Shown in pieces: positions 18,549 to 28,588 of a stretch of 64,000 bases of DNA. The stretch lies in NCBI RefSeq assembly GCF_001514065.1, contig NZ_KQ948428.1, forward strand, positions 499,525 through 563,524, written 5' to 3'. The translations under genes were made by a program, and so were the position numbers. Origin of the DNA: Streptomyces antibioticus. Its GTDB lineage: Bacteria > Actinomycetota > Actinomycetes > Streptomycetales > Streptomycetaceae. Each line of letters begins with the position of its first letter. The stretch's first letter is position 1. The notes under the pieces were generated by a model. The model did not search any database. It worked only from the letters and a program-made list of their open reading frames with translations, and had not been told where the DNA came from.

Positions 18549-18642
18549 CGGAATAGCGGCTACGCGAGAAGCTTGCTGAGGTAAGGCCCGTCGTTCTGAG
18601 AGGATTCCGGCACCCTTGGCAGCCGGTGGACGGGAGGCAGGA

Positions 18643-19542
18643 GTGGCACGTGCCGCTCAGAGAGGAGACGAGCACACGCTCGTTTTCGATTCCTGGGGTG
18701 ATCCGCAAGGGCACCCCGTCTTTCTGCTGCACGGAACTCCTGGCAGCCATCAGGGACCGCGCCCCCGGTCCATGCTGCTCTATCAGCTTGGCATCCACCT
18801 GATCGCCTACGATCGCCCCGGCTACGGTGGTTCCACCCGCCGCCGCGGCCGCGCGGTCGTCGACGCCGCGCGAGACGTCGAGGCCATCGCCGACGAGCTC
18901 GGCATCGACGAGTTCTCCGTCGTCGGCCGTTCCGGTGGCGGACCGCACGCTCTCGCCTGCGCCGCGGAGCTTCCGAAGCGGGTCAGAAGCGCAGCCGTCC
19001 TGGTGAGCCTCGCGCCGCCGGACGCGCCGGAGCTCGACTGGTTCAAGGGGATGACGGAGTCCAACGTCCGCGAGTACCTGAACGCACGCAACAACCGCAA
19101 GAGGCTGCGGAGCACGCTCGTACAGAACGCGGACGCCATGCGGGCCGACCCGATGGCCGTGCTCAACGACCTCGACGACGAGATGCCCGAGGTCGACCGG
19201 CACGTCGTGGCGGACGCCGGCATCCGCAGAATGCTGCACAAGAACTTCGAGGCCGCGATCGAGAACACCGCGGACGGCTGGATCGACGACGCGGTCGCCT
19301 TCAGCAAGAACTGGGGCTTCGATCCGGTGACCATCGACGTCCCCACCCTGCTGTGGCACGGTGAGGACGACGTCTTCTCTCCCGTCGAGCACTTCAACTG
19401 GCTCTCCCGCACGATCAGGAACGCCACCGTCGTGCTCCAGCCGTCCGCCGCGCACTTCGCGGCCGTACCCGTGCTGCCCCGGGTGCTCGGCTGGCTCCGG
19501 GACCAGGCACGGGCCGACGCCGCCGCCACCACGACGGCGTGA
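18643..19542 (+). CDS. Alpha/beta hydrolase
   Basis: A 299-residue cytosolic alpha/beta hydrolase. GTG 18643 was chosen because GGGAGG lies 8 nt upstream; an in-frame TTG at 18616 has no ribosome site. The HGTPGSHQGPRPR loop forms the oxyanion hole. The nucleophile is Ser about 97 in GRSGGGPHA, the acid is probably in LWHGEDDVFSP, and His about 271 in PSAAHFAAVP completes the triad. The HG-T-P-GS variant is typical of uncharacterised streptomycete hydrolases. It converges on fxsT with 21 nt between stops, so it could share the locus's biology but is not in its operon. Substrate unknown. Confidence 0.82.
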   Translation: MARAAQRGDEHTLVFDSWGDPQGHPVFLLHGTPGSHQGPRPRSMLLYQLGIHLIAYDRPGYGGSTRRRGRAVVDAARDVEAIADELGIDEFSVVGRSGGGPHALACAAELPKRVRSAAVLVSLAPPDAPELDWFKGMTESNVREYLNARNNRKRLRSTLVQNADAMRADPMAVLNDLDDEMPEVDRHVVADAGIRRMLHKNFEAAIENTADGWIDDAVAFSKNWGFDPVTIDVPTLLWHGEDDVFSPVEHFNWLSRTIRNATVVLQPSAAHFAAVPVLPRVLGWLRDQARADAAATTTA

Positions 19543-19563
19543 CCTCCGCCTGAAGCGCCACCG

Positions 19564-22500
19564 TCAGATCGGGTGCGGGTCGAGCTCCAACCCCACCCGA
19601 TGACCAGCCCGCAGCCGGACCACCTTGGAGTGCTTGGCGCCGAGCTTGCGGCCCAGCACGTCCAGGGACGCCCGGGACAGTTCGTCGGCCTCGTCGACGC
19701 GGCCGGCCTCGCGCAGCAGGACCGCGAGATTGCCCTGGCAGGTCAGTGCGGTGGGGTGGGTCGGGCCGAGCCGCCCGCACAACTCCCGGTAGGCCTGGAG
19801 GTAGTTCTGCTCCGCCGTCTCCACATCGCCGAGGGCCGCCTCCGTGTTCGCCAGGTTCATCTGGCAGTTCATGCTGAAGGGGTGGCCCGGCCCCAGGGTG
19901 GTCCGTAGCGCTGCACGCGCCCGTTCGCACACCTCACGGGCCTCGGCAGCCCGGTCCGTGGACAGCAGGTTGATGCCGTGATTGACCGCGCACGCCAGCG
20001 TGTTGGGGTGGCCCTCGCCGAGCGCGGTACGGAACCGTTTGAACAGGTCCGCGGTCTCCCGGCAGGCCTCCTCGTGGCGTCCCGCGGCCGAGAGGTGACC
20101 CGCGTGGCCGAGCCGCACCACCAGGGTCTCCGGCGAGGAGTCGCCCAGGCGCTTGCGGCAGATGTCCAGTACTTGCCGACTGATGTCCATGGCCTCGTCC
20201 AGCAGGTCGAGGCGGCGCAGCGTGATGGCGAGCGCCTTGGCGGCCTCCAGCGCGGGCGGTTGCTCCGGCCCGAGCTCCAACGCCGTCGCATAGACCTCGC
20301 GCAGGGTCTCGGCCGAGGCCTCGTACTCACCGCAGGAGCGCTGGTCGCGGCCCAGGTTGATCTTGGAGAACAGGGTGTAGGGGTGCTTCTCCCCCAGCGT
20401 GGACGCGCGCTGTTCCCAGTTGCCGCCGTCTACGTCCCGGGCTTCGTAGCAGTCTCCGGCCATGCGCAGCGACACGGCCAGGTTGTTGGCCGCGAACAGT
20501 GTCCGGGGACTGTCCTCGCCGAGGAGGAAGACCCATCGGCGGTAGGTCTCGCGGTCGATCTCCAACGCCTTGCCGACCTGTCCGACGGCCCTCAGGTCCG
20601 CGGTGAGGCCGCCCGCCGTCATCAGCGTGTGCTCGTCGTCGTCACCCAGAACGGCGCGCTGCCGGTCGTAGACGTCCTGGTCGATCTCCAGCGCCTTGCT
20701 GTACCAACCCTGGAACCGCAGCACGTTGGCCATCTCGAAGCGCAGGTGCAGGGTCCAGCGGTCGTCGGGGCCCGCCTCCTTCTGCCACTTGTCCAGCAGA
20801 TCGTCGGCCAGCGCGAGGGCCTCCGCGTACTCGCCCCGCGCGCGCAAGTACCTCATCCACTCGGTCATCAGCTTGCGGATCCGGTCGTCGAACGAATACC
20901 TGGTCCACGGTGTCTTGAGATGGGGCCAGATGGTGTTGTAGCGCGGCCAGTTCGTCGGGCTCTCCACGTCCTCCTGGGACGGGCGGGCGCCGTTGAGGAC
21001 ATCGAGCACGGCTTGCAGGGCCGACTGCTGCTCCTCCGCGGACATCGACGACCGCACCGCGGCCTGCACCAGCCGGTGCACCTGGAGGCTCTGGCTCTTG
21101 CGGTCGACCTTGGCCAGCGAGAAGCGGTTCAGCTGCTGGATGGCCCGGCCCGCCAGTGCCGAGCCCCCGATGCCCGGCTGCACCTTGCGGAGGGCCTCGC
21201 CCATCTCCTTGCCGTTCACCAGATCGAGTGCGATGGGGTCCGCACCGAAGTGCGCGCACAGCTCCAGCAGTCGCCGGGCGACCGGGGAGTCGAGTTTCTC
21301 GATGGAGATGTTCCAGGTCGCGCCCACCTGGAGCGGGAAGTCCGGCGCGTCGACGTCCGCCTCCAGCCGCGCCAACTGCCGCTCCAGCAGCTCCAGGTAC
21401 GCGGTGGCGCTCTGGCCGGTCTGGTTCAGCCAGGCGGCGGCGTGGTCGACGGCGAGCGGCAGGTCACCGAGGGCGGCCGCGACCTGCTCGGCGTCCTCCT
21501 CGTTGATGCCGGAGACCCGGCGCAAAAGGTGCTCGACGCTCTCGGTGCGGGTGAACACGTCGACCTCGACCCGCCCGCCGACCTGCTCCCAGCCCTCGTT
21601 GCGGGTAGTGATCAGGACATGGCCGGTCGGCGTGTCGACCAGCAGCTTCGCGATGGACTCAGGGGTGGTGGCGTTGTCGAAGACCAGCAACCAGCGGTCG
21701 TACTTCGTGCCGCGGCGCAGCACCTCCCGGACGGCGTCCGCCGTGGCGCTGATGCTGTCCCGCTCCTCCACGCCCAGGTGCGAGGCGAGTTCGGAGTACT
21801 GGCGCAGAGCGAGGTCGCCGAACTCCGCCTCGATCCACCAGACGACGTCGTAGTTGCCCCGGTAGCGGTACGCGTACTCGGTCGCCAGCTGCGTCTTGCC
21901 GACGCCCCCCATGCCGTGCAGCAGCGTGGCGGTGCCGGTCTCCGCGAGCCGCCGCCGCAGCTCCTCCAGCAGTTCGGCGCGTCCCGTGAAGGCCGCGTTG
22001 CGCGTCGGAACGGACCACACGGGCGGCTGCGCTCCGGGGAAACGGGGCCCGCCGGCCCCCGCCTCCGCGGGATGCTCACCCTGCGAGGGCTGGGCGTCCA
22101 GGGCTCGCAGCAGAGCGTTCTTGGCCTGATCCTCGTTCATGCCGCCCAGATGGACCGGCGTCCGGTCCGAGAACGGGTGGGCCAGCCGTGCGTCGCTGAC
22201 CCGGACCGGCACCAGGGTGCGCCGGGAACCCATCGGGTCGGCGGCGGCCACGGCCTCCCAGACGGCCCTGGCCTCCGGGGACTTCTGGTAGTCGGCGGAG
22301 AGCACCGCCACGGTGCGGGAGGCGCCGCGCACCTTGCTGTCGGTGTCGTCGCGCAGCGGTACCCCGACGGCCGCGCCGGCCTCGGAGGCCGCGTCCGCGA
22401 CGGTGAAGCCCGCCTCTCGGAGGACCCGTCCGATCCACTCGGCCCAGATCCGGTCCTCGCGGACATAGCTGAGGAACACATGGGTGGGGTCAGGCGCCCT

Positions 22501-23499
22501 GCGGCGCACCACCGCCTTGAGATAGTTCTGGCGTTCGTCGTCGGCCATGGGGACGAGGGAGTCGACGTCGCCCTCGGTGATGACGGACGTCAGCCGCTCG
22601 CAGGCGGCGAGCAACGAGGCTGGGGTCTCCGGCTCGTCGCGGAATGTCGCGAGCATCTCCTCGTAGGCGTACGGGGACTTGAAGGGCAGTTCCACATTGC
22701 CCCAGTAGCGACGCTGGTCGATGCCCGGGGTCTGGAGCAGCAACTGGTCGAAGGTGACCCGCACTTTGGCCCGTGCCGCCTCCAGCCGGTCCGCCTCGGA
22801 GTCCACGACCCGCATGGGCACCGGCAGGATGCGGATACGCCGACGGCTCCTGGTCTCCAGCACCCGGCGGGCGACGGCCGCCGCGCCCTCGATGCTCTGG
22901 TCGTTGTGGGTGAAGCAGTTCACCAGCACGTCGGGAAAGTGCAGGGTGCAGATGTCCGAGATGTCGCTGAGGCCGGTGCGGCTGTCGATGAGAACGTAGT
23001 CGTAGCCGTGCCGGAACTGGGCGCACAGCGCGTCCAGGAACTGACCGCCGTACTGCTGGTCGTAGAAGAGGTTCCAGTTGAACTGGGAGAAGATCGACGA
23101 GTAGTTGCGGTCCTGGCGGCCCGCGGAGATGTAGTCCAGTCGGCCGCCGCGGGAGAACTCCCATTCCAGCTGGTTCAACGTCCGTCCGATGTCGGCCTGT
23201 TCGGCGATCCAGTCGTCGTGGATCTTGGCCCCACGCTGGTGGTCGACCTTCAGGACGTAGTCGTTGATGAGTTCCAGCACCCCGGGGCGGTCCTTCAGGG
23301 CGCCCGTCTCCAGGAACGGGTGCAGGAACCGGTCCAGTCCCGGCGCCTCCAGATCCCAGTCCACGACGAGTACCCGGCGGCCCTGGGAGGCCATGATCCA
23401 GGCGGTGTTGGCCAGGGCCATGGTGCGGCCGCTGCCGCCCTTGTAGCTGTAGAAGGTGATGATCTTACCGCCGTCGGGGCGGGGGGACACGCCGGTCAC
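19564..23499 (-). CDS. fxsT: FxsT: ParA-like ATPase / TIR-like / NB-ARC / TPR protein of the FxSxx-COOH system
   Basis: A 1311-residue multidomain protein of the FxSxx-COOH system TPR family. Four parts can be read in order. A ParA/MinD-like ATPase has deviant Walker A YKGGSGRT at residues 20-26, with VVDWDLEAPGLDR and YVLIDSRTGLSD downstream. A TIR-like domain runs from about 337 (THVFLSYVREDRIWAEWIG). An NB-ARC/STAND ATPase has Walker A HGMGGVGKTQLA at about 528, KYDRWLLVFDNA as Walker B and the GDLPLAVDHAAAWL helix. Twelve or so TPR-like units fill about 850-1311, for example HPNTLACAVNHGINLLSTDR. The plan is that of an NLR-type sensor with a second NTPase in front. Its GTG start overlaps the fxsC stop. 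The biological role is not established. Confidence 0.88.
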   Translation of the reverse strand: MTGVSPRPDGGKIITFYSYKGGSGRTMALANTAWIMASQGRRVLVVDWDLEAPGLDRFLHPFLETGALKDRPGVLELINDYVLKVDHQRGAKIHDDWIAEQADIGRTLNQLEWEFSRGGRLDYISAGRQDRNYSSIFSQFNWNLFYDQQYGGQFLDALCAQFRHGYDYVLIDSRTGLSDISDICTLHFPDVLVNCFTHNDQSIEGAAAVARRVLETRSRRRIRILPVPMRVVDSEADRLEAARAKVRVTFDQLLLQTPGIDQRRYWGNVELPFKSPYAYEEMLATFRDEPETPASLLAACERLTSVITEGDVDSLVPMADDERQNYLKAVVRRRAPDPTHVFLSYVREDRIWAEWIGRVLREAGFTVADAASEAGAAVGVPLRDDTDSKVRGASRTVAVLSADYQKSPEARAVWEAVAAADPMGSRRTLVPVRVSDARLAHPFSDRTPVHLGGMNEDQAKNALLRALDAQPSQGEHPAEAGAGGPRFPGAQPPVWSVPTRNAAFTGRAELLEELRRRLAETGTATLLHGMGGVGKTQLATEYAYRYRGNYDVVWWIEAEFGDLALRQYSELASHLGVEERDSISATADAVREVLRRGTKYDRWLLVFDNATTPESIAKLLVDTPTGHVLITTRNEGWEQVGGRVEVDVFTRTESVEHLLRRVSGINEEDAEQVAAALGDLPLAVDHAAAWLNQTGQSATAYLELLERQLARLEADVDAPDFPLQVGATWNISIEKLDSPVARRLLELCAHFGADPIALDLVNGKEMGEALRKVQPGIGGSALAGRAIQQLNRFSLAKVDRKSQSLQVHRLVQAAVRSSMSAEEQQSALQAVLDVLNGARPSQEDVESPTNWPRYNTIWPHLKTPWTRYSFDDRIRKLMTEWMRYLRARGEYAEALALADDLLDKWQKEAGPDDRWTLHLRFEMANVLRFQGWYSKALEIDQDVYDRQRAVLGDDDEHTLMTAGGLTADLRAVGQVGKALEIDRETYRRWVFLLGEDSPRTLFAANNLAVSLRMAGDCYEARDVDGGNWEQRASTLGEKHPYTLFSKINLGRDQRSCGEYEASAETLREVYATALELGPEQPPALEAAKALAITLRRLDLLDEAMDISRQVLDICRKRLGDSSPETLVVRLGHAGHLSAAGRHEEACRETADLFKRFRTALGEGHPNTLACAVNHGINLLSTDRAAEAREVCERARAALRTTLGPGHPFSMNCQMNLANTEAALGDVETAEQNYLQAYRELCGRLGPTHPTALTCQGNLAVLLREAGRVDEADELSRASLDVLGRKLGAKHSKVVRLRAGHRVGLELDPHPI

Positions 23500-24755
23500 G
23501 ATTGGGCCTCCTGGTCACCCTGCGTATCGGCCGACGCCGAGTTGCTGGTCGAGGATGGTGAGGGACGGTTGAGGTACTGCTGGGCCGCACTGTCGGCGAG
23601 CTCTATGAAGCGGGAGTTGAAGGTCTCCGAGTTGTCGATGCCCGCCGCCGCTCCGCGCTGGATGGCCCGGCCGGTGTTCAGCCGGCGGGGCAGTGCTTCC
23701 CTGAGCCGGGCGTCGAGCGTCTCGCGGGCCTGCCAGGTCTGCGGGTCGTCGGCCAGCGGGGTCAGCACGGACACCCAGGGCAAGTCCCGTGCGTCGAAGG
23801 CGCGCAGTCGTTCGATGGCTGCGCGGTCGTGCAGGACCCAGGGGTCGAGGATGAGCACCCAGGGGCTCGTCGCCTCGCGCCGGCCGAGGAAGACGGCCTC
23901 GGCCTCGTCGTAGGTGTGGATCTCGGGGGCGAAGCCGAGGTTGCGGGCGAGTTCGGCGGTGCGGTCGACCAGTGCGGTGCCCAGTCCGTCGCTGAAGGGC
24001 TGCCAGTCCCGGGGCTCGGCACCGTACTTGGTGTCGCTGCGATCGGGCGGCAGATGACCGGTGTCCGGGGCCAGTACGGCAATGCCCAGCGGATGCCAGG
24101 AGGAGGCGGCGAACGCGTCCGGTACGTCCGCCAGATCGGTCAGTGCGGCCTCGCCCGGGGCGGGTTCGGGGACCCGGCGCGCGGCCTGCACGACGCACTG
24201 GGCGATCCTGCGCACACACTGGTCGTAGTACTCGGGCCGGTCGGGAGACTGCCGCAGTCCGTACAGACCGCGCCGCGCATAGTGGTACAGCGCGTCCTCG
24301 TCGACGTGGACCGGGGTCAGCGGTGGGTCGGGCACGGGCAGGCCGAGCTTGACGACGACGGGCACGGCCGTGGTGGGAACCGGCGTCCACAACACCGGGA
24401 CGACGGCTTTCGGGTGTGCGCGCCGGGCGAAGACCGACCACTGGCGGCCGCAGTAGCCGTCGGCGAAGTAGCGGCGCGTGATCAGGGGCACGAAGCTGTG
24501 ACAGCGCTGCAGGGCGCGGAGCATGACCGGCCCACCGCGTTCGGCGTCCAGGTATCCGAGGGAGGGGGTCGTGAGGAGTCCGCTGCCGCCCGCGACCGCC
24601 CGGGTGAGGTCCGTGTAGAACTCCTTCACGTTCTTGTCGGCCGGGATGCAGCCCCCCTGCGACTCTCCGCCTGACGACGGTGCCGGGGCGTAGCTCAGGA
24701 AGAAGTGCGGCGCTTTGTCACGCGAGCCTCGGGGGGCGCGGCCGTCATACGTCAT
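23496..24755 (-). CDS. fxsC: TIR-like protein FxsC
   Basis: A 419-residue protein of the FxsC family. The N-terminal TIR-like domain (about 15-190) begins PHFFLSYAPAPSSGG. It contains YLDAERGGPVMLRALQRCHSFVPLITRRY and FADGYCGRQWSVFARR, where the position of the TIR NADase Glu (WCxxE) is Gln. A C-terminal domain from about 215 (HPLGIAVLAPDTGHLPPDRS) contains SPWVLILDPWVLHD and resembles a second Rossmann-like half. A Ser/Asn-rich tail follows. The ATG lies 11 nt inside the end of the upstream TIR gene, and its stop overlaps the fxsT start, so translation is coupled on both sides. An adaptor role is more likely than catalysis, by inference. Confidence 0.85.
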   Translation of the reverse strand: MTYDGRAPRGSRDKAPHFFLSYAPAPSSGGESQGGCIPADKNVKEFYTDLTRAVAGGSGLLTTPSLGYLDAERGGPVMLRALQRCHSFVPLITRRYFADGYCGRQWSVFARRAHPKAVVPVLWTPVPTTAVPVVVKLGLPVPDPPLTPVHVDEDALYHYARRGLYGLRQSPDRPEYYDQCVRRIAQCVVQAARRVPEPAPGEAALTDLADVPDAFAASSWHPLGIAVLAPDTGHLPPDRSDTKYGAEPRDWQPFSDGLGTALVDRTAELARNLGFAPEIHTYDEAEAVFLGRREATSPWVLILDPWVLHDRAAIERLRAFDARDLPWVSVLTPLADDPQTWQARETLDARLREALPRRLNTGRAIQRGAAAGIDNSETFNSRFIELADSAAQQYLNRPSPSSTSNSASADTQGDQEAQS

Positions 24756-25413
24756 GTTTCTCCCCCTGGGAGGCGTTCGCCGATGCGAAGAGGCTGTCGA
24801 ACTCGTGCGGTTCGCAGGGGTCCAGACGGGCGCTGACGGCCACCTCGACGATTTTCTGGGCCAGTTGGTAGGCGACCTCGTTGAAGACCTTGTGGCGGCC
24901 GTGGTTCTGCAGTCCGAGCAACCCCAGGCGCTGGTAGTCGGGGTGGAAATCCTGGTGGGCGTACTGAACCTGGGAGTAGGGGCGGGGAATGTCGGCGGGC
25001 CGCAACGGTGCCCACAGAACCGGCACGACCGCGCTCCGGATGAACGTACCGCGATCCCGGTGGAGTTGCTGCCGTCGTTCGAAGCAGTCCCACTCCAGTT
25101 CGCACCACCGGCTGCTGAACAGGCGTGGCGCCAGCACCGGTACGAGCACCTGGCACCGGGCGAGACGGAGTTTGAGCTCGTCCTGCCAGTCGGTGCCGAT
25201 CGGAATCCGCTGGTCGAGGTAGACCGCGGGGATCCCGGCGTCCAGATCGGTGAGTTCCACCAGGTGCTCGGTCAGTCTCGTGTGGAAGCGGCGCAACCGT
25301 TCGTTGGGCGGTCTGTCACTCTCGGGCGACCAGGGATTACGTCCGTAGCTCATGAACCCGTAGGGGCGCTGAACGCTGCTGCGCACCTCATCGCGGTACG
25401 GGGTGTCACGCAC
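24745..25413 (-). CDS. Compact TIR-domain protein of the Fxs locus
   Basis: A 222-residue protein that is essentially one TIR-like domain. RPYGFMSYGRNPWSPES forms the first strand and loop, GIPAVYLDQRIPIGTDWQDELKLRLARCQVLVPVLAPRLF the middle, and SSRWCELEWDCFERR carries the S-x-W-C-x-x-E motif in which the Glu (about residue 107) is the catalytic residue of NAD-cleaving TIR domains. The VVPVLWAP strand is shared with FxsC (VVPVLWTP), suggesting duplication. GTG 25413 is preceded by GGAG and overlaps the acetyltransferase gene by 8 nt. Another start a few codons downstream is possible. Enzymatic NADase activity is plausible but untested. Confidence 0.8.
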   Translation of the reverse strand: MRDTPYRDEVRSSVQRPYGFMSYGRNPWSPESDRPPNERLRRFHTRLTEHLVELTDLDAGIPAVYLDQRIPIGTDWQDELKLRLARCQVLVPVLAPRLFSSRWCELEWDCFERRQQLHRDRGTFIRSAVVPVLWAPLRPADIPRPYSQVQYAHQDFHPDYQRLGLLGLQNHGRHKVFNEVAYQLAQKIVEVAVSARLDPCEPHEFDSLFASANASQGEKHDV

Positions 25414-26236
25414 GGCCGGGCTCCGCGGGGAGGTTGCGGCGCGTACGACGGCACACGGCCATCCAGGAGTCGGCCGCGTCCACCGCCCAGCGCAGCGGGA
25501 ACAGCCTGCTGTCGGCGGCGCCGATCCGGCCCCTGGTGAGGGCGTCGGATGCACCCGGTGCGCGGGTCTCCAGCCAATGGCCGAGTTCCCCGAAGTCGCT
25601 GTCGTCGAGATCGACGTCGACGAAGTGGGTCCAGCGCGGGCCGGCGTCGGTCGAGATCCGGCAGTCGTAGCGGCGGCGGCGCGGGAGGTACTGCCGGTAC
25701 TCCGCGAGATGGAAGGCCGAGCAGGTCTCGAACCCGGCGCCCAGCAACAGGACATGGGCGCCGTCCTCGTACATGCGGCCGAGTGGCGAGCGCTCGCCGA
25801 GCAGGCAGTCCTGGTCGTGCCCCGAGGTGATCCGGGCCGCGCGCGCACCCAGTGCGGCGAAGGACGACTGCGGGTGAGTGCTGCGCACGGCTCCCGGGGT
25901 GACCCGCACCTCCTCCGCCAGCCGTCCCATGCCGTGCGAAGGGGTGGAGGCCGCGCTGAACGGCTCCATGTTTTCACGGTAGGCCACAAGTTGATGTGGC
26001 GTCAGGCCTCGCGTCAGGTGGAGATACGCCCGTGATGTCAGCGAATTTCCCTCGGTGAACGTAGGCACCACCACCGTGCCCTCGGCACCCAGCGCATCAC
26101 GCAACGCGCCCAGCACGGCCCCGACGCCGCCGGACACCCGGCCGACGGACCGCAGGGAGGCATGGACCAGCAGCGTCATGGCCTTCTCGACACCCAGTGC
26201 CCGCAGATCGGCGGTGAGGGAGGCCCGGGTCCGCAT
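25406..26236 (-). CDS. Aminoglycoside N(3)-acetyltransferase family protein in the Fxs locus
   Basis: A 276-residue acetyl-CoA-dependent enzyme of the AAC(3) fold. Diagnostic segments are MTLLVHASLRSVGRVSGGVGAV near the N-terminus, GTVVVPTFTEGNS, and VRSTHPQSSFAALGARA with the conserved His of the acetyl-transfer centre. HVLLLGAGFETCSAFHLAEY follows. The length is normal and no key motif is missing. AAC(3) members near antibiotic clusters modify aminoglycosides, but some act on other amines. In this operon it sits between the radical SAM maturase (6-nt gap) and a TIR gene, so modification of the Fxs peptide or another locus product is a fair hypothesis. Resistance function is not implied. Confidence 0.85.
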   Translation of the reverse strand: MRTRASLTADLRALGVEKAMTLLVHASLRSVGRVSGGVGAVLGALRDALGAEGTVVVPTFTEGNSLTSRAYLHLTRGLTPHQLVAYRENMEPFSAASTPSHGMGRLAEEVRVTPGAVRSTHPQSSFAALGARAARITSGHDQDCLLGERSPLGRMYEDGAHVLLLGAGFETCSAFHLAEYRQYLPRRRRYDCRISTDAGPRWTHFVDVDLDDSDFGELGHWLETRAPGASDALTRGRIGAADSRLFPLRWAVDAADSWMAVCRRTRRNLPAEPGRA

Positions 26237-26242
26237 CCGCCG

Positions 26243-28375
26243 TCAGCCACGCAGCCTGTCGGCCATCCGGCGGCCATGGACCGTGAGGCCTTCGTGGGGA
26301 ATCACTGCGGCGGACGGGCGGTCCAGGTACGCGGACCGCAGCCGCTCCCTGGCCGCCTCACTACCGGCGAGGTCGAAGAGGTCCAACAGGGCGTTGAACT
26401 TCATCTGTTGCACTCCGTCCACGATCAGCGCGGCAAGTTCCGCGGCGGTCGGCGGCAGCACGATCCCCAGGGCACCGAAGGCGTGCGGGGCCGCGGCCAC
26501 CTCCCCCTCGTCCCGCCGGCCGCGCAACGGGGTGCACGCGGTGAACAGGAGCCGAACTCCCTCTCCGCGGCCGGTGTGCCGGGTTCGGATGCACCGGGCG
26601 GCCTCGTCGAACAGCCGTTGCCACAGCGCGTGTTCCGTCTCGTCCAGGGCGGCTGCGGGCGGGGCGGGGAAGTCGTCCCGGTACGGGTCGGTGTCCTCCA
26701 CCAGCACGGTGAACTCCCCTGTGGTGACGCGGTGTACGGGCCGCCAGGCGAACCCGGCGGACTCGGCCGCGGCGACCGTACGCGGGACCGGATCCGCCCC
26801 GGTGACGACCAGCAGACGGCCGTCCCGGGCGAGCAGTGCGGCGCTGCCGGGGCCGGGCGGCAGGGTGAGACGGCCGAGCCCCGGCAGATGGGCCTGCCCC
26901 GCCCGCTCCGGCAGGTCGAGCCTGAGTGCGGTGCGGGCCCGCAGCGCGACCGTCACGGCGATCTCGCCGAGCCGCTGCCGGACGGCGTCCGGTGTCAGCC
27001 GCCCCTCGACGCCCCGGACCGCCCAGGTGCCGATGTGCGGGTGGCGCAGCACCTGCGCGGTCTCACGGGGCCACTGCTGGTCCAGCCCGATCAGGGCGTC
27101 GGCCTCGGGCCCCGGGTACCGGGCGCACACAGCGCCGAGCAGCATCCGGCGCACGCTGTCCTCGGCCCCGACGAGCGCGCGCAGCGCCTCGCCGTCGCCG
27201 TCGCCCGCGGCCAGGGAGTCGAAGCCGTGCGCGGTCAGGGTGTGCCGGCGGTGGACCGGGCGCGGGGACCGCAGGACGTGCCCGATCAGCCGGAAGAGGT
27301 CCTCGCAGTAGACCGAGGGGTTGTCGAAGCCGTTGTCGGACCGATGGCGATGCCCGTACAGGCCACCGCCGCAGACGCGGACCACGGAGCAGTCGCGGCA
27401 CTGCCGGCTCAGTGCCTCCAGTCCCCCGCGCTGTGCCAGGAAGCCGGGGTGGGCCGCCGCCTCGTCGAACGAGTGCCGCAGGACGTGGAAGCCGGTGGCG
27501 GGCGCGCCGACTCCGGCCGTCTTGAGCCAGTCGGCCTGCTCGATCTCCCCGTCGGTCTCCACCACGACCAGGTCCGGGCTGCCGAGCCCGAGGGCCTCGG
27601 TGAACGACTCCAGTCCGTCCCGTCCGGCCTCGATGGAGTCGAACAGCCGGACGGGAAAGGGTCTGCCGTCGGCGGTCCAGCGATCGTAGACGGTGGTCAG
27701 CCAGTGCGCGTGGGCCGCGGGACGGGCGGGATCCCGGGCCGGCGGCCGATCCCATGTGGCATGCGGCAGCAGGAAGTCAACCCGAGGCGGACGGAGCGCG
27801 GCCAGGGCCTCGTAGACGGCGACCGGGTCGTTCTGTACGTCTACGGTGCACAGCAGACCCGCAAAAGCGCTGCGGTACTCCGGGGAGCCGATGAGCCGGA
27901 CGGCCCTGACGACGGCGTCGTACGATCCGGTGCCGCCCGGCCGCTTGCGGTGGCGATCATTGGCGGCGCGGTCGCCGTCGAGGGAGATGCCGGTTCTGAT
28001 CCCTTCGCGCACCAGCATGCGGCACATGGACTCGTTCAGCCGCAGGCCGTTCGTCTGCATCCGCAGGTCCAGTCGGCACACTCCGCGCAGCGCGGTGCGC
28101 AGGTCCCGGGCGATTCCGGCCAGCCGGTCGGCGCCGGCCAGCAGGGGTTCACCGCCGTGCAGGATGACGTGCACACAGGGGAGTTCGGGGTGGTCCCGGG
28201 CGTGTTCGGCGATCCGGGACACCGTCGCCGCGATCACCTCGTCCGGGACGACCGGTGGCCGGCGTCGCCAGCTCTGGTCGGCGTGGCGGTAGACGTAGCA
28301 GTGGTCGCAGGCCAGGTCGCAACGGCTGTGCACCTTGAGGACGAACTGACGGAACGCTCCTGTTCCCGCGGTCAT
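26243..28375 (-). CDS. fxsB: FxsB family radical SAM/SPASM cyclophane-forming peptide maturase
   Basis: A 710-residue maturase. The radical SAM cluster motif C-x3-C-x2-C is at Cys19, Cys23 and Cys26 (SRCDLACDHCYVYR). HVILHGGEPLL and LRMQTNGLRLNE are the SAM-binding strands. A SPASM region near 340-380 (CRDCSVVRVCGGG, then NPSVYC) provides auxiliary-cluster Cys ligands. FxsB enzymes join an aromatic ring to a side-chain carbon two residues away in the FxsA C-terminal motif, making a three-residue cyclophane. The C-terminal 320 residues correspond to the HExxH-type domain found in long FxsB proteins, but here the motif is degenerate (VDGVQQMKFNALLDL at about 652). It begins 21 nt after fxsA, preceded by GAGG. 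Confidence 0.9.
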   Translation of the reverse strand: MTAGTGAFRQFVLKVHSRCDLACDHCYVYRHADQSWRRRPPVVPDEVIAATVSRIAEHARDHPELPCVHVILHGGEPLLAGADRLAGIARDLRTALRGVCRLDLRMQTNGLRLNESMCRMLVREGIRTGISLDGDRAANDRHRKRPGGTGSYDAVVRAVRLIGSPEYRSAFAGLLCTVDVQNDPVAVYEALAALRPPRVDFLLPHATWDRPPARDPARPAAHAHWLTTVYDRWTADGRPFPVRLFDSIEAGRDGLESFTEALGLGSPDLVVVETDGEIEQADWLKTAGVGAPATGFHVLRHSFDEAAAHPGFLAQRGGLEALSRQCRDCSVVRVCGGGLYGHRHRSDNGFDNPSVYCEDLFRLIGHVLRSPRPVHRRHTLTAHGFDSLAAGDGDGEALRALVGAEDSVRRMLLGAVCARYPGPEADALIGLDQQWPRETAQVLRHPHIGTWAVRGVEGRLTPDAVRQRLGEIAVTVALRARTALRLDLPERAGQAHLPGLGRLTLPPGPGSAALLARDGRLLVVTGADPVPRTVAAAESAGFAWRPVHRVTTGEFTVLVEDTDPYRDDFPAPPAAALDETEHALWQRLFDEAARCIRTRHTGRGEGVRLLFTACTPLRGRRDEGEVAAAPHAFGALGIVLPPTAAELAALIVDGVQQMKFNALLDLFDLAGSEAARERLRSAYLDRPSAAVIPHEGLTVHGRRMADRLRG

Positions 28376-28396
28376 CGGCCCTCGGCGTCCGGACGG

Positions 28397-28588
28397 TCAG
28401 ACGCCGGAGTTGAAGGTGATGTCCGGCGACCGGCCGGACGACAGCAGCGTGTACACGGGCTGGACGCGACAGCGGGCCAGATCGGCCAGTGGAATGGTGG
28501 CGCAGTCGGCGATCCCCGTGACCAACTGCGGTGTTTCGGCTCGTAACGCGACCCGAGCTACGCCGGAATCCTCTCCGCCATTCGTCAT
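28397..28588 (-). CDS. fxsA: FxsA: FxSxx-COOH cyclophane RiPP precursor peptide
   Basis: A 63-residue precursor whose last five residues are F-N-S-G-V, exactly the FxSxx-COOH signature after which the family is named. The N-terminal two thirds act as leader. GIADCATIPLADLARC resembles the short hydrophobic leader helix seen in the family, and VYTLLSSGRSPDIT links to the core. The Phe and Ser of the final motif are the predicted residues crosslinked by FxsB. The ATG is preceded by AAGGGG. It is the first gene of a six-gene operon and the direct neighbour of its maturase, which makes the assignment strong despite the small size. Confidence 0.9.
   Translation of the reverse strand: MTNGGEDSGVARVALRAETPQLVTGIADCATIPLADLARCRVQPVYTLLSSGRSPDITFNSGV

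Follow-up and report, generated by a model that had tools for sequence, protein, structure and literature searches.

The 64,000-nt window analysed here (Streptomyces antibioticus, contig NZ_KQ948428.1) contains an FxSxx-COOH locus of six minus-strand genes facing a serine alpha/beta-hydrolase gene, here called ABH (Table 1). The six genes encode the peptide precursor FxsA, the radical SAM/SPASM maturase FxsB, an AAC(3)-fold enzyme, two TIR-like proteins (TIR1 and FxsC2) and the large NLR-like protein FxsT. A preliminary description of this DNA had placed the six genes at these coordinates with gaps or overlaps of 4 to 21 nt, and the recomputed junctions all agree: in gene order, gaps of 21 and 6 nt are followed by overlaps of 8, 11 and 4 nt. 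It had also treated 19564..28588 as a complete unit; this interval is too short, since the convergent ABH, whose 3' end faces that of fxsT across 21 nt, belongs to the unit.

Table 1. Genes of the accessory block, in window numbering
Feature	Coordinates	Strand	Product	Evidence
fxsA	28397..28588	-	63-aa precursor	ribosome-binding-site-like AAGGGGA upstream of ATG; conserved tail
fxsB	26243..28375	-	radical SAM/SPASM maturase (~1-367) with C-terminal HExxH beta-hydroxylase-family domain	TIGR04269
AAC(3)-fold gene	25406..26236	-	AAC(3)-fold (Antibiotic_NAT) acetyltransferase	PF02522, 232 bits
TIR1	24745..25413	-	small FxsC-type protein, TIR only, 222 aa	NF040588, 147.3 bits; GTG start
FxsC2	23496..24755	-	full-length FxsC, pseudo-TIR and FxsC C-terminal domain	TIGR04276, 136.7 bits
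fxsT	19564..23499	-	ParA/TIR/NB-ARC/TPR protein, 1311 residues	NF040586, NF047398, Pfam domains
ABH	18616..19542	+	serine alpha/beta-hydrolase, convergent with fxsT	Abhydrolase_1, 72.2 bits; linkage
Whole accessory block	18616..28588	.	ABH and the six-gene operon	empty site in relatives; dS block

Database matches bear out the family names FxsB, FxsC and FxsT given in the preliminary description. FxsB scored 537.5 bits against TIGR04269 (cut-off 370) and 113 bits against NF040587, under the cut-off of 225. TIR1 exceeded the NF040588 cut-off (FxsC_Nterm, 130), and FxsC2 was recognised through its C-terminus only, passing TIGR04276 (FxsC_Cterm, cut-off 55) and falling under NF040588 with 109.3 bits. 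FxsT scored 890.2 bits against NF040586 (FxSxx_TPR, cut-off 300) and 144.3 bits against the KGGVGR ATPase model NF047398 (cut-off 90), with Pfam matches to NB-ARC and TIR_2. Unlike the single FxsC of NCBIfam, the FxsC of this locus is split into a Glu-bearing TIR-only protein and a full-length pseudo-TIR protein. A long open reading frame (ORF) starting at TTG (24745-25989) was ruled out as the small TIR gene; the GTG at 25413, which has GGAG upstream and gives an 8-nt overlap with the AAC(3) stop, is the likely start.

The block is flanked by a hydroxyisobutyrate-dehydrogenase-type gene and an amino acid permease gene. In all six relatives drawn from 24 Streptomyces with a permease hit, the fxs genes and ABH were not found at this site (E up to 1e-15). 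These empty sites keep the permease, dxs and a 339-aa neighbour gene, and two of them keep the dehydrogenase. The 339-aa neighbour (window:16045-17064) is a conserved protein with no Pfam match. S. justiciae (locus L117) carries the block at the same site as the window, and synonymous divergence (dS) between the two is 0.37-0.65 for every gene from ABH to fxsA as compared to 0.07-0.19 in the flanks.

Linkage of peptide, signalling and accessory genes

We surveyed 121 Streptomyces genomes, 77 of which have FxsB over cut-off. The hits comprise 46 long forms (>530 bits; 42/121 genomes) and 74 short forms. Streptomyces loci are related, and no statistic given here is phylogeny-corrected. In the stretches read around long FxsB, an FxsC-type gene occurs at 43 of the 46 loci and FxsT at 42, and all 42 of these FxsT carry the ParA motif. 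Hit lists alone, holding the best 150 FxsT hits, give both genes at 40/46 long loci, with all listed neighbours on the same strand. By the same best 150 hits, the short forms fall into 42 loci with FxsT without FxsC, 8 with both, 3 with FxsC only and 21 with neither; the short-form stretches read hold ParA-type FxsT as well as a shorter, ParA-less FxsT. The preliminary description had named an inconsistent link between fxsA/fxsB and the TIR/STAND genes elsewhere as the result that would refute it, and the counts for long FxsB instead reveal a consistent one. Its view that a modified peptide and a TIR/STAND unit work together stands as far as a locus of the ribosomally synthesized and post-translationally modified peptide (RiPP) type is tightly coupled to TIR/NLR-like genes; it needs correction in that the TIR modules are not equivalent, as described below.

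ABH was sought at an E-limit of 1e-50 with at most 19 candidates scored per genome, so that some ABH-like genes may be missed, and was found at 48 places in 45/121 genomes, 42 of them within 12 kb of a long FxsB. It is present at 42/46 long-FxsB loci versus 0/74 short-FxsB loci (genome-level Fisher p ~9e-22, uncorrected for relatedness). ABH is lacking at four long loci: one in genome G108, one on a contig of G033 that is cut short, and the two divergent ones in G004 and G041. ABH is absent at the four loci that hold FxsC and FxsT without FxsB (L039, L042, L043, L044) and from short-FxsB loci with FxsC and a ParA-type FxsT (L045-L050, L056). FxsA, FxsB and ABH are present at L067, where no FxsC or FxsT was found. 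In the empty-site search, ABH lay beside an Fxs locus in 6 of the 7 Streptomyces relatives with a hit (E <=1e-60, of 24).

Distance correlations (r 0.90-0.97) are confounded by species history, and we relied on genomes with two loci. In five of six such loci ABH, FxsB and FxsT share the nearest foreign locus; in the sixth (L053) this holds for ABH and FxsT, with a different nearest locus for FxsB. ABH also shares the history of the block, because it lies inside the region of elevated dS. Its triad S106, D252 and H280 is kept in 65, 66 and 66 of 66 aligned proteins, and the best match in the PDB is 9wlv (E 4.4e-48), named as a pimeloyl-ACP methyl ester carboxylesterase. The preliminary description had argued for an intracellular peptide from the lack of a protease gene, an argument that is unsafe because the unit includes this serine hydrolase, whose gene lies 21 nt past the operon.

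Gene clustering of the 46 loci also yielded a neighbour protein with SLATT_3 and SLATT_1 domains (PF18184 and PF18181), whose gene is divergent from fxsA or lies 3' of fxsT. It occurs at 38 places, 31 of which are within 12 kb of FxsB (0.19 expected), corresponding to 30/46 long loci plus a single short one, in G007. In Micromonospora, weak SLATT hits occur upstream on the same strand at L136 and L138. Unlike these 30 relatives, the genome of the window yielded no SLATT gene, neither in a protein search, which gave matches in 38 genomes and is the firmer of the two, nor in a Pfam search, which was silent in every control genome as well.

Trypsin/alpha-lytic-type protease genes lie near several Fxs loci (L059:49-948, L059:11885-13093), and the family occurs at 23/46; this and other recurrent neighbour families may be ordinary synteny. 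FxsC TIR sequences also occur inside frames of ~900-1575 aa (G052:C2:31770, G053:C8:327306, G098:C1:1524237, G108:C1:7904627, G049:C1:416279), away from any FxsB hit and from any FxsT among the matches listed. Larger fusion proteins are possible in these five cases.

The precursor and its probable modifying enzymes

FxsA ends in T-F-N-S-G-V-COOH, 21 nt upstream of fxsB. The tail proposed in the preliminary description was thus confirmed; FxsA itself matched no model in NCBIfam or Pfam, and its identity rests therefore on position and tail. We searched for ORFs with a stop between 500 nt upstream and 60 nt downstream of the fxsB start. A script detected an ORF ending F.S..(G) at 38/46 long-FxsB loci, window included, as compared to none of 178 ORFs on the opposite strand of that interval, which argues that the tail is not a chance occurrence. 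The fifth motif residue was L, I or V in 38/38 script hits (two with one extra Gly), and the motif is therefore F-x-S-x-[LIV]. When the eight script misses were read by eye, two more such tails were identified (L067, L080), and none was found in L091 and the cut L096. L072 and L093 have a tail F-D-A-A-[L/I], with Ala instead of Ser at the predicted crosslink residue. In L054 and L055 (G004, G041) the motif F-N-S-E-I is followed by a C-terminal extension; here a long FxsB occurs without FxsC, the sole FxsT match downstream being weak and NB-ARC-like, and the precursor possibly represents another peptide class.

In a wider set, for which the pattern required a final L, V, I or F, the tail was present in 68/72 loci (missing in L091, the cut L118, L119 and L145), with Ser in the third place in 66/68 and Ala in 2/68; L040 and L120, which have the same gene coordinates, are probably one locus counted twice. 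The precursor as a whole changes rapidly. FxsA is 39.7% identical to that of S. justiciae, with a ratio of nonsynonymous to synonymous divergence (dN/dS) of 1.07 over 63 codons. A fixed tail in a fast-changing precursor suggests that the tail is the part that is read.

The CxxxCxxC motif of FxsB lies at C19-C26 of the translation. MscB, a maturase of the triceptides, belongs to InterPro family IPR026335, which we take to be FxsB. The locus shares with the triceptide systems of XncB, OscB and MscB a radical SAM/SPASM maturase and a Phe-x-Ser motif, and related enzymes link residues i and i+2, the MscB bond joining Phe C4 to Ser C-beta (PMC11002830). By analogy, the Phe-Asn-Ser of the FxsA tail is predicted to form a three-residue cyclophane. 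Unlike the triceptides, the locus is coupled to TIR/STAND genes; the likeness lies in the maturase and the motif. The C-terminal domain of FxsB is of the HExxH family, which has members that hydroxylate or oxidatively cleave RiPP precursors (PMC12636437). In the window's protein HExxH is replaced in the aligned column by D-G-V-Q-Q, and the motif is lost in 41/45 aligned long FxsB, window included.

The AAC(3)-fold protein scored 172.1 bits against NF033082, under the cut-off of 270, and was also under cut-off for four other resistance families. Its H176, E179 and D207, residues of a kind that we take to be catalytic, are kept in 29/29 aligned homologues, and its substrate is possibly the peptide. 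The gene stands beside fxsB in 25/46 long-FxsB loci (the 25th, L094, has a long overlapping ORF). Mutual exclusion of AAC(3) and HExxH was considered, with AAC(3) at 25/41 HExxH-less loci versus 0/4 HExxH loci in the census, and was dropped because six loci (L135, L136, L137, L138, L141, L143) hold AAC(3) together with an HE.QH motif in FxsB.

Probable division of labour among the TIR modules

FxsT comprises a ParA/MinD-like part with KGGSGRT (~12-212), a pseudo-TIR (341-458), an NB-ARC domain (~511-692) and TPRs. The NB-ARC domain has an intact P-loop, G-M-G-G-V-G-K-T, and a V-H-R-L-V-Q that can be read as an MHD-like motif. The ParA part matches the candidate defence family PDC-M28B (E 9.5e-22).

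Among the three TIR modules of the window, TIR1 is the sole one with a catalytic-type Glu (W-C-E-L-E-W, E107 of 222), which is invariant in an alignment of 21. FxsC2 has C-G-R-Q-W, with Gln for Glu, and the TIR of FxsT has Val at that place. The two TIR-like proteins and the TIR in FxsT noted in the preliminary description are present, but they are not equivalent. Among 57 FxsC-type proteins, 93% keep the Glu of C-G-x-E-W. In the fused TIR of ParA-type FxsT the Glu occurs in 0/80, and 11/80 have a Glu one column away, where an alignment error is possible. The Glu is present, by contrast, in 26 of 31 FxsT encoded beside a short FxsB where no FxsC hit lies within 15 kb (absence of the ParA motif was confirmed in 11 of the 31, and L146-L165 were read over a 901-base TIR stretch). 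TIR catalysis therefore appears, from these alignments, to have moved from the receptor FxsT to a separate TIR protein.

All three tandem FxsC loci of the census (the window, L040 and L041) combine a TIR-only protein bearing Glu with a full-length protein bearing Gln. One catalytic TIR per locus was rejected as a general rule: 70/82 loci fit, 52 with a single Glu-bearing FxsC-type TIR and 18 with a pair in which a single copy has Glu (L048, among the 18, has Glu and Asp), and 12 do not. The 12 (L130, L134-L142 and L144 with two copies, L143 with three) are all Micromonosporaceae, and their second copy has lost the Cys and Trp around the Glu. The Q state in L117-L145 is not independent, these loci having been found with two patterns, one of which contains GRQW. 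We keep the statement for the window and the Streptomyces loci seen only.

We infer that TIR1 is an NAD+-processing enzyme. In the Thoeris system ThsA-B1-B2 of S. aureus, ThsB1 is the partner that binds the phage major head (capsid) protein, and an E81Q substitution in ThsB2 disrupts immunity (PMC12578639). This comparison points to a sensor or adaptor role for FxsC2. The likeness, a pair of TIR proteins with catalysis depending on one of them, is a works-like comparison only: ThsB1 keeps its Glu, unlike FxsC2, and the description of the three-gene system names neither a peptide gene nor a STAND receptor. Pfam scans of the operon, the permease, ABH and nine neighbour ORFs gave no SIR2, SLOG or macro domain of a ThsA-type effector, and ThsB/ThcB4 hits were weak and partial.

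The signalling genes also occur on their own. Four loci (L039, L042, L043, L044) keep FxsC and FxsT without FxsB, and in two of the four genomes (G011, G106) FxsB over the family cut-off is missing. The peptide is therefore not always needed, and a role as obligatory antidote was rejected. Where identified, the next genes are unrelated (PaaX, histidine-kinase-like, methyltransferase). The FxsT of L043 and L044 has lost the P-loop lysine of NB-ARC; in both loci an opposite-strand gene (L043:10269-12395, L044:9015-10532) repeats the ParA-TIR half of FxsT at 46-47% identity. L039:4098-9184, on contig C6 of the window's own genome (G000), is a second FxsC and FxsT pair with no hit for fxsA, fxsB, AAC(3) or ABH. 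Upstream of it, ORFs of 151 and 500 aa resemble those of the complete locus L057 (size and C-terminus) and of L058 (size), which suggests that L039 lost its peptide genes from a once complete locus.

Interpretation and alternatives

Kaur et al. (2020; PMC7159879) described FxSxx/radical SAM-SPASM systems with TIR AP-ATPase-TPR proteins as conflict systems, including standalone FxSxx versions with an extra inactive ParA/MinD-like domain in actinobacteria. The present locus resembles them in its FxSxx protein, radical SAM/SPASM enzyme, TIR AP-ATPase with TPRs and ParA-like domain, and the general system class is already described in silico. Their systems centre on a zincin-like HExxH enzyme, whereas in the present locus the corresponding domain forms a fused part of FxsB with the motif lost. 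For the standalone systems, the accessible portion of that paper does not mention AAC(3), an alpha/beta-hydrolase, SLATT or the identity of the catalytic TIR; it mentions alpha/beta-hydrolase and SLATT in other systems. What looks new is the presence of ABH, the association with SLATT, the split of catalysis among the TIR proteins and the tandem-TIR variant; no study of these was among the open-literature matches listed. The preliminary description had called the function unsettled; the class had in fact been predicted to act in conflict, and no experimental function was found among the open-literature matches listed.

Our preferred reading, held with slightly less than even confidence, is that the block encodes a TIR/STAND conflict system under the control of a cyclophane peptide of its own, and that it is a split-TIR variant of the accessory FxSxx/AP-ATPase cassettes. 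By family resemblance, FxsB would link the ring of Phe in the F-N-S tail of FxsA to the beta-carbon of Ser. ABH, and AAC(3) where present, would process the peptide or its product, as their co-inheritance hints. The ring-closed tail, with its free aliphatic C-terminus, may be a self-made ligand inside the cell for the TPR/NB-ARC part of FxsT, setting a threshold for the receptor or licensing it. Activated FxsT would assemble the TIR modules, among which its own TIR and FxsC2 would be catalytically dead adaptors and TIR1 would act on NAD+, in keeping with the observed Glu pattern. Most relatives would couple the pathway to the linked SLATT membrane effector. Because no SLATT gene was found in the window's genome, the pathway here may end in NAD+ loss as such or act through an effector encoded elsewhere. 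It would most likely serve as an abortive response to phage or another invader. The fuller proposal, a peptide-gated three-layer TIR pathway with an NLR-type receptor, a self-made ring-closed ligand, a hydrolase and a separate catalytic TIR that feeds a SLATT pore in most relatives, is doubtful as a whole.

Several observations weigh against a peptide-regulated conflict system. FxsC and FxsT occur without FxsB in four loci, and 12 loci (11 with two TIRs, one with three) keep Glu in every FxsC copy. The window sits amid metabolic genes rather than in a defence island, an idea dropped since the nine neighbour ORFs scanned and the permease are metabolic, transport or unassigned genes. PADLOC hits besides PDC-M28B are weak. 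For the VMAP systems, Kaur et al. state that an alpha/beta-hydrolase, which may or may not be akin to ABH, is mutually exclusive with peptide-modification components when paired with a caspase (PMC7159879). Among the matches listed in searches of the open literature, where subscription journals are mostly missing, no study was recognised that reports a peptide, an NADase activity or a phage phenotype for loci of this type.

It is unlikely, though a serious alternative, that the FxsA peptide acts on neighbouring cells or on growth of the producer. FxsA is the fastest-evolving product of the block, ABH follows long FxsB rather than the TIR genes, as a processing enzyme would, and L067 keeps the peptide genes and ABH without FxsC and FxsT. 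Against this reading, an ABC-2 membrane protein (10 loci) is the single transporter-like family recognised among the twelve neighbour families present in at least 6/46 loci; a transporter may yet be among three others of the twelve (median ~178, 295 and 207 aa). No immunity gene was recognised. A developmental or stress switch, in which the TIR/STAND proteins report an internal state during Streptomyces growth, is improbable. In its favour, all FxsC2 relatives found among genome contigs are from Actinomycetes, many of them multicellular, and plasmid matches to FxsB covered at most 52% of it (E-limit 1e-40); the patchy presence (42/121), the empty sites and the fast block-wise divergence fit an accessory conflict system better.

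The two accessory enzymes could instead detoxify a foreign or self-made antibiotic, with the TIR/STAND proteins reacting to the same compound. The conserved H176, E179 and D207 of the AAC(3)-fold protein and the likeness of ABH to esterases (9wlv) agree with this, yet AAC(3) is present at 25/46 loci only and the window's protein is far under the curated resistance cut-offs, which makes the idea very improbable. We give little credence to ABH being merely a conserved chromosomal neighbour. Its convergent position outside the operon, the 6/48 places away from long FxsB (among them G028, where ABH is beside FxsT on a contig without the FxsB), and the ABH-like genes that a census of at most 19 candidates per genome may miss speak for a neighbour. 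ABH is, on the other hand, missing from the empty sites, inside the dS block and co-inherited among paralogous loci of the same genome. It is also not fixed in place: mostly 3' of fxsT, it stands ahead of fxsA in L069, L074, L077, L080, L089, L092 and L095, ~10 kb from the fxsT end in the upstream direction of the operon strand.

Many Streptomyces genomes carry an FxsB-type maturase, yet no experimental function of the peptides was found among the open-literature matches listed. One heritable TIR/STAND unit with a hydrolase and SLATT poses a concrete question, whether the modified peptide gates an NLR. The Glu pattern singles out one residue in one protein, and the loci in which the peptide and signalling modules are split provide natural knock-outs.

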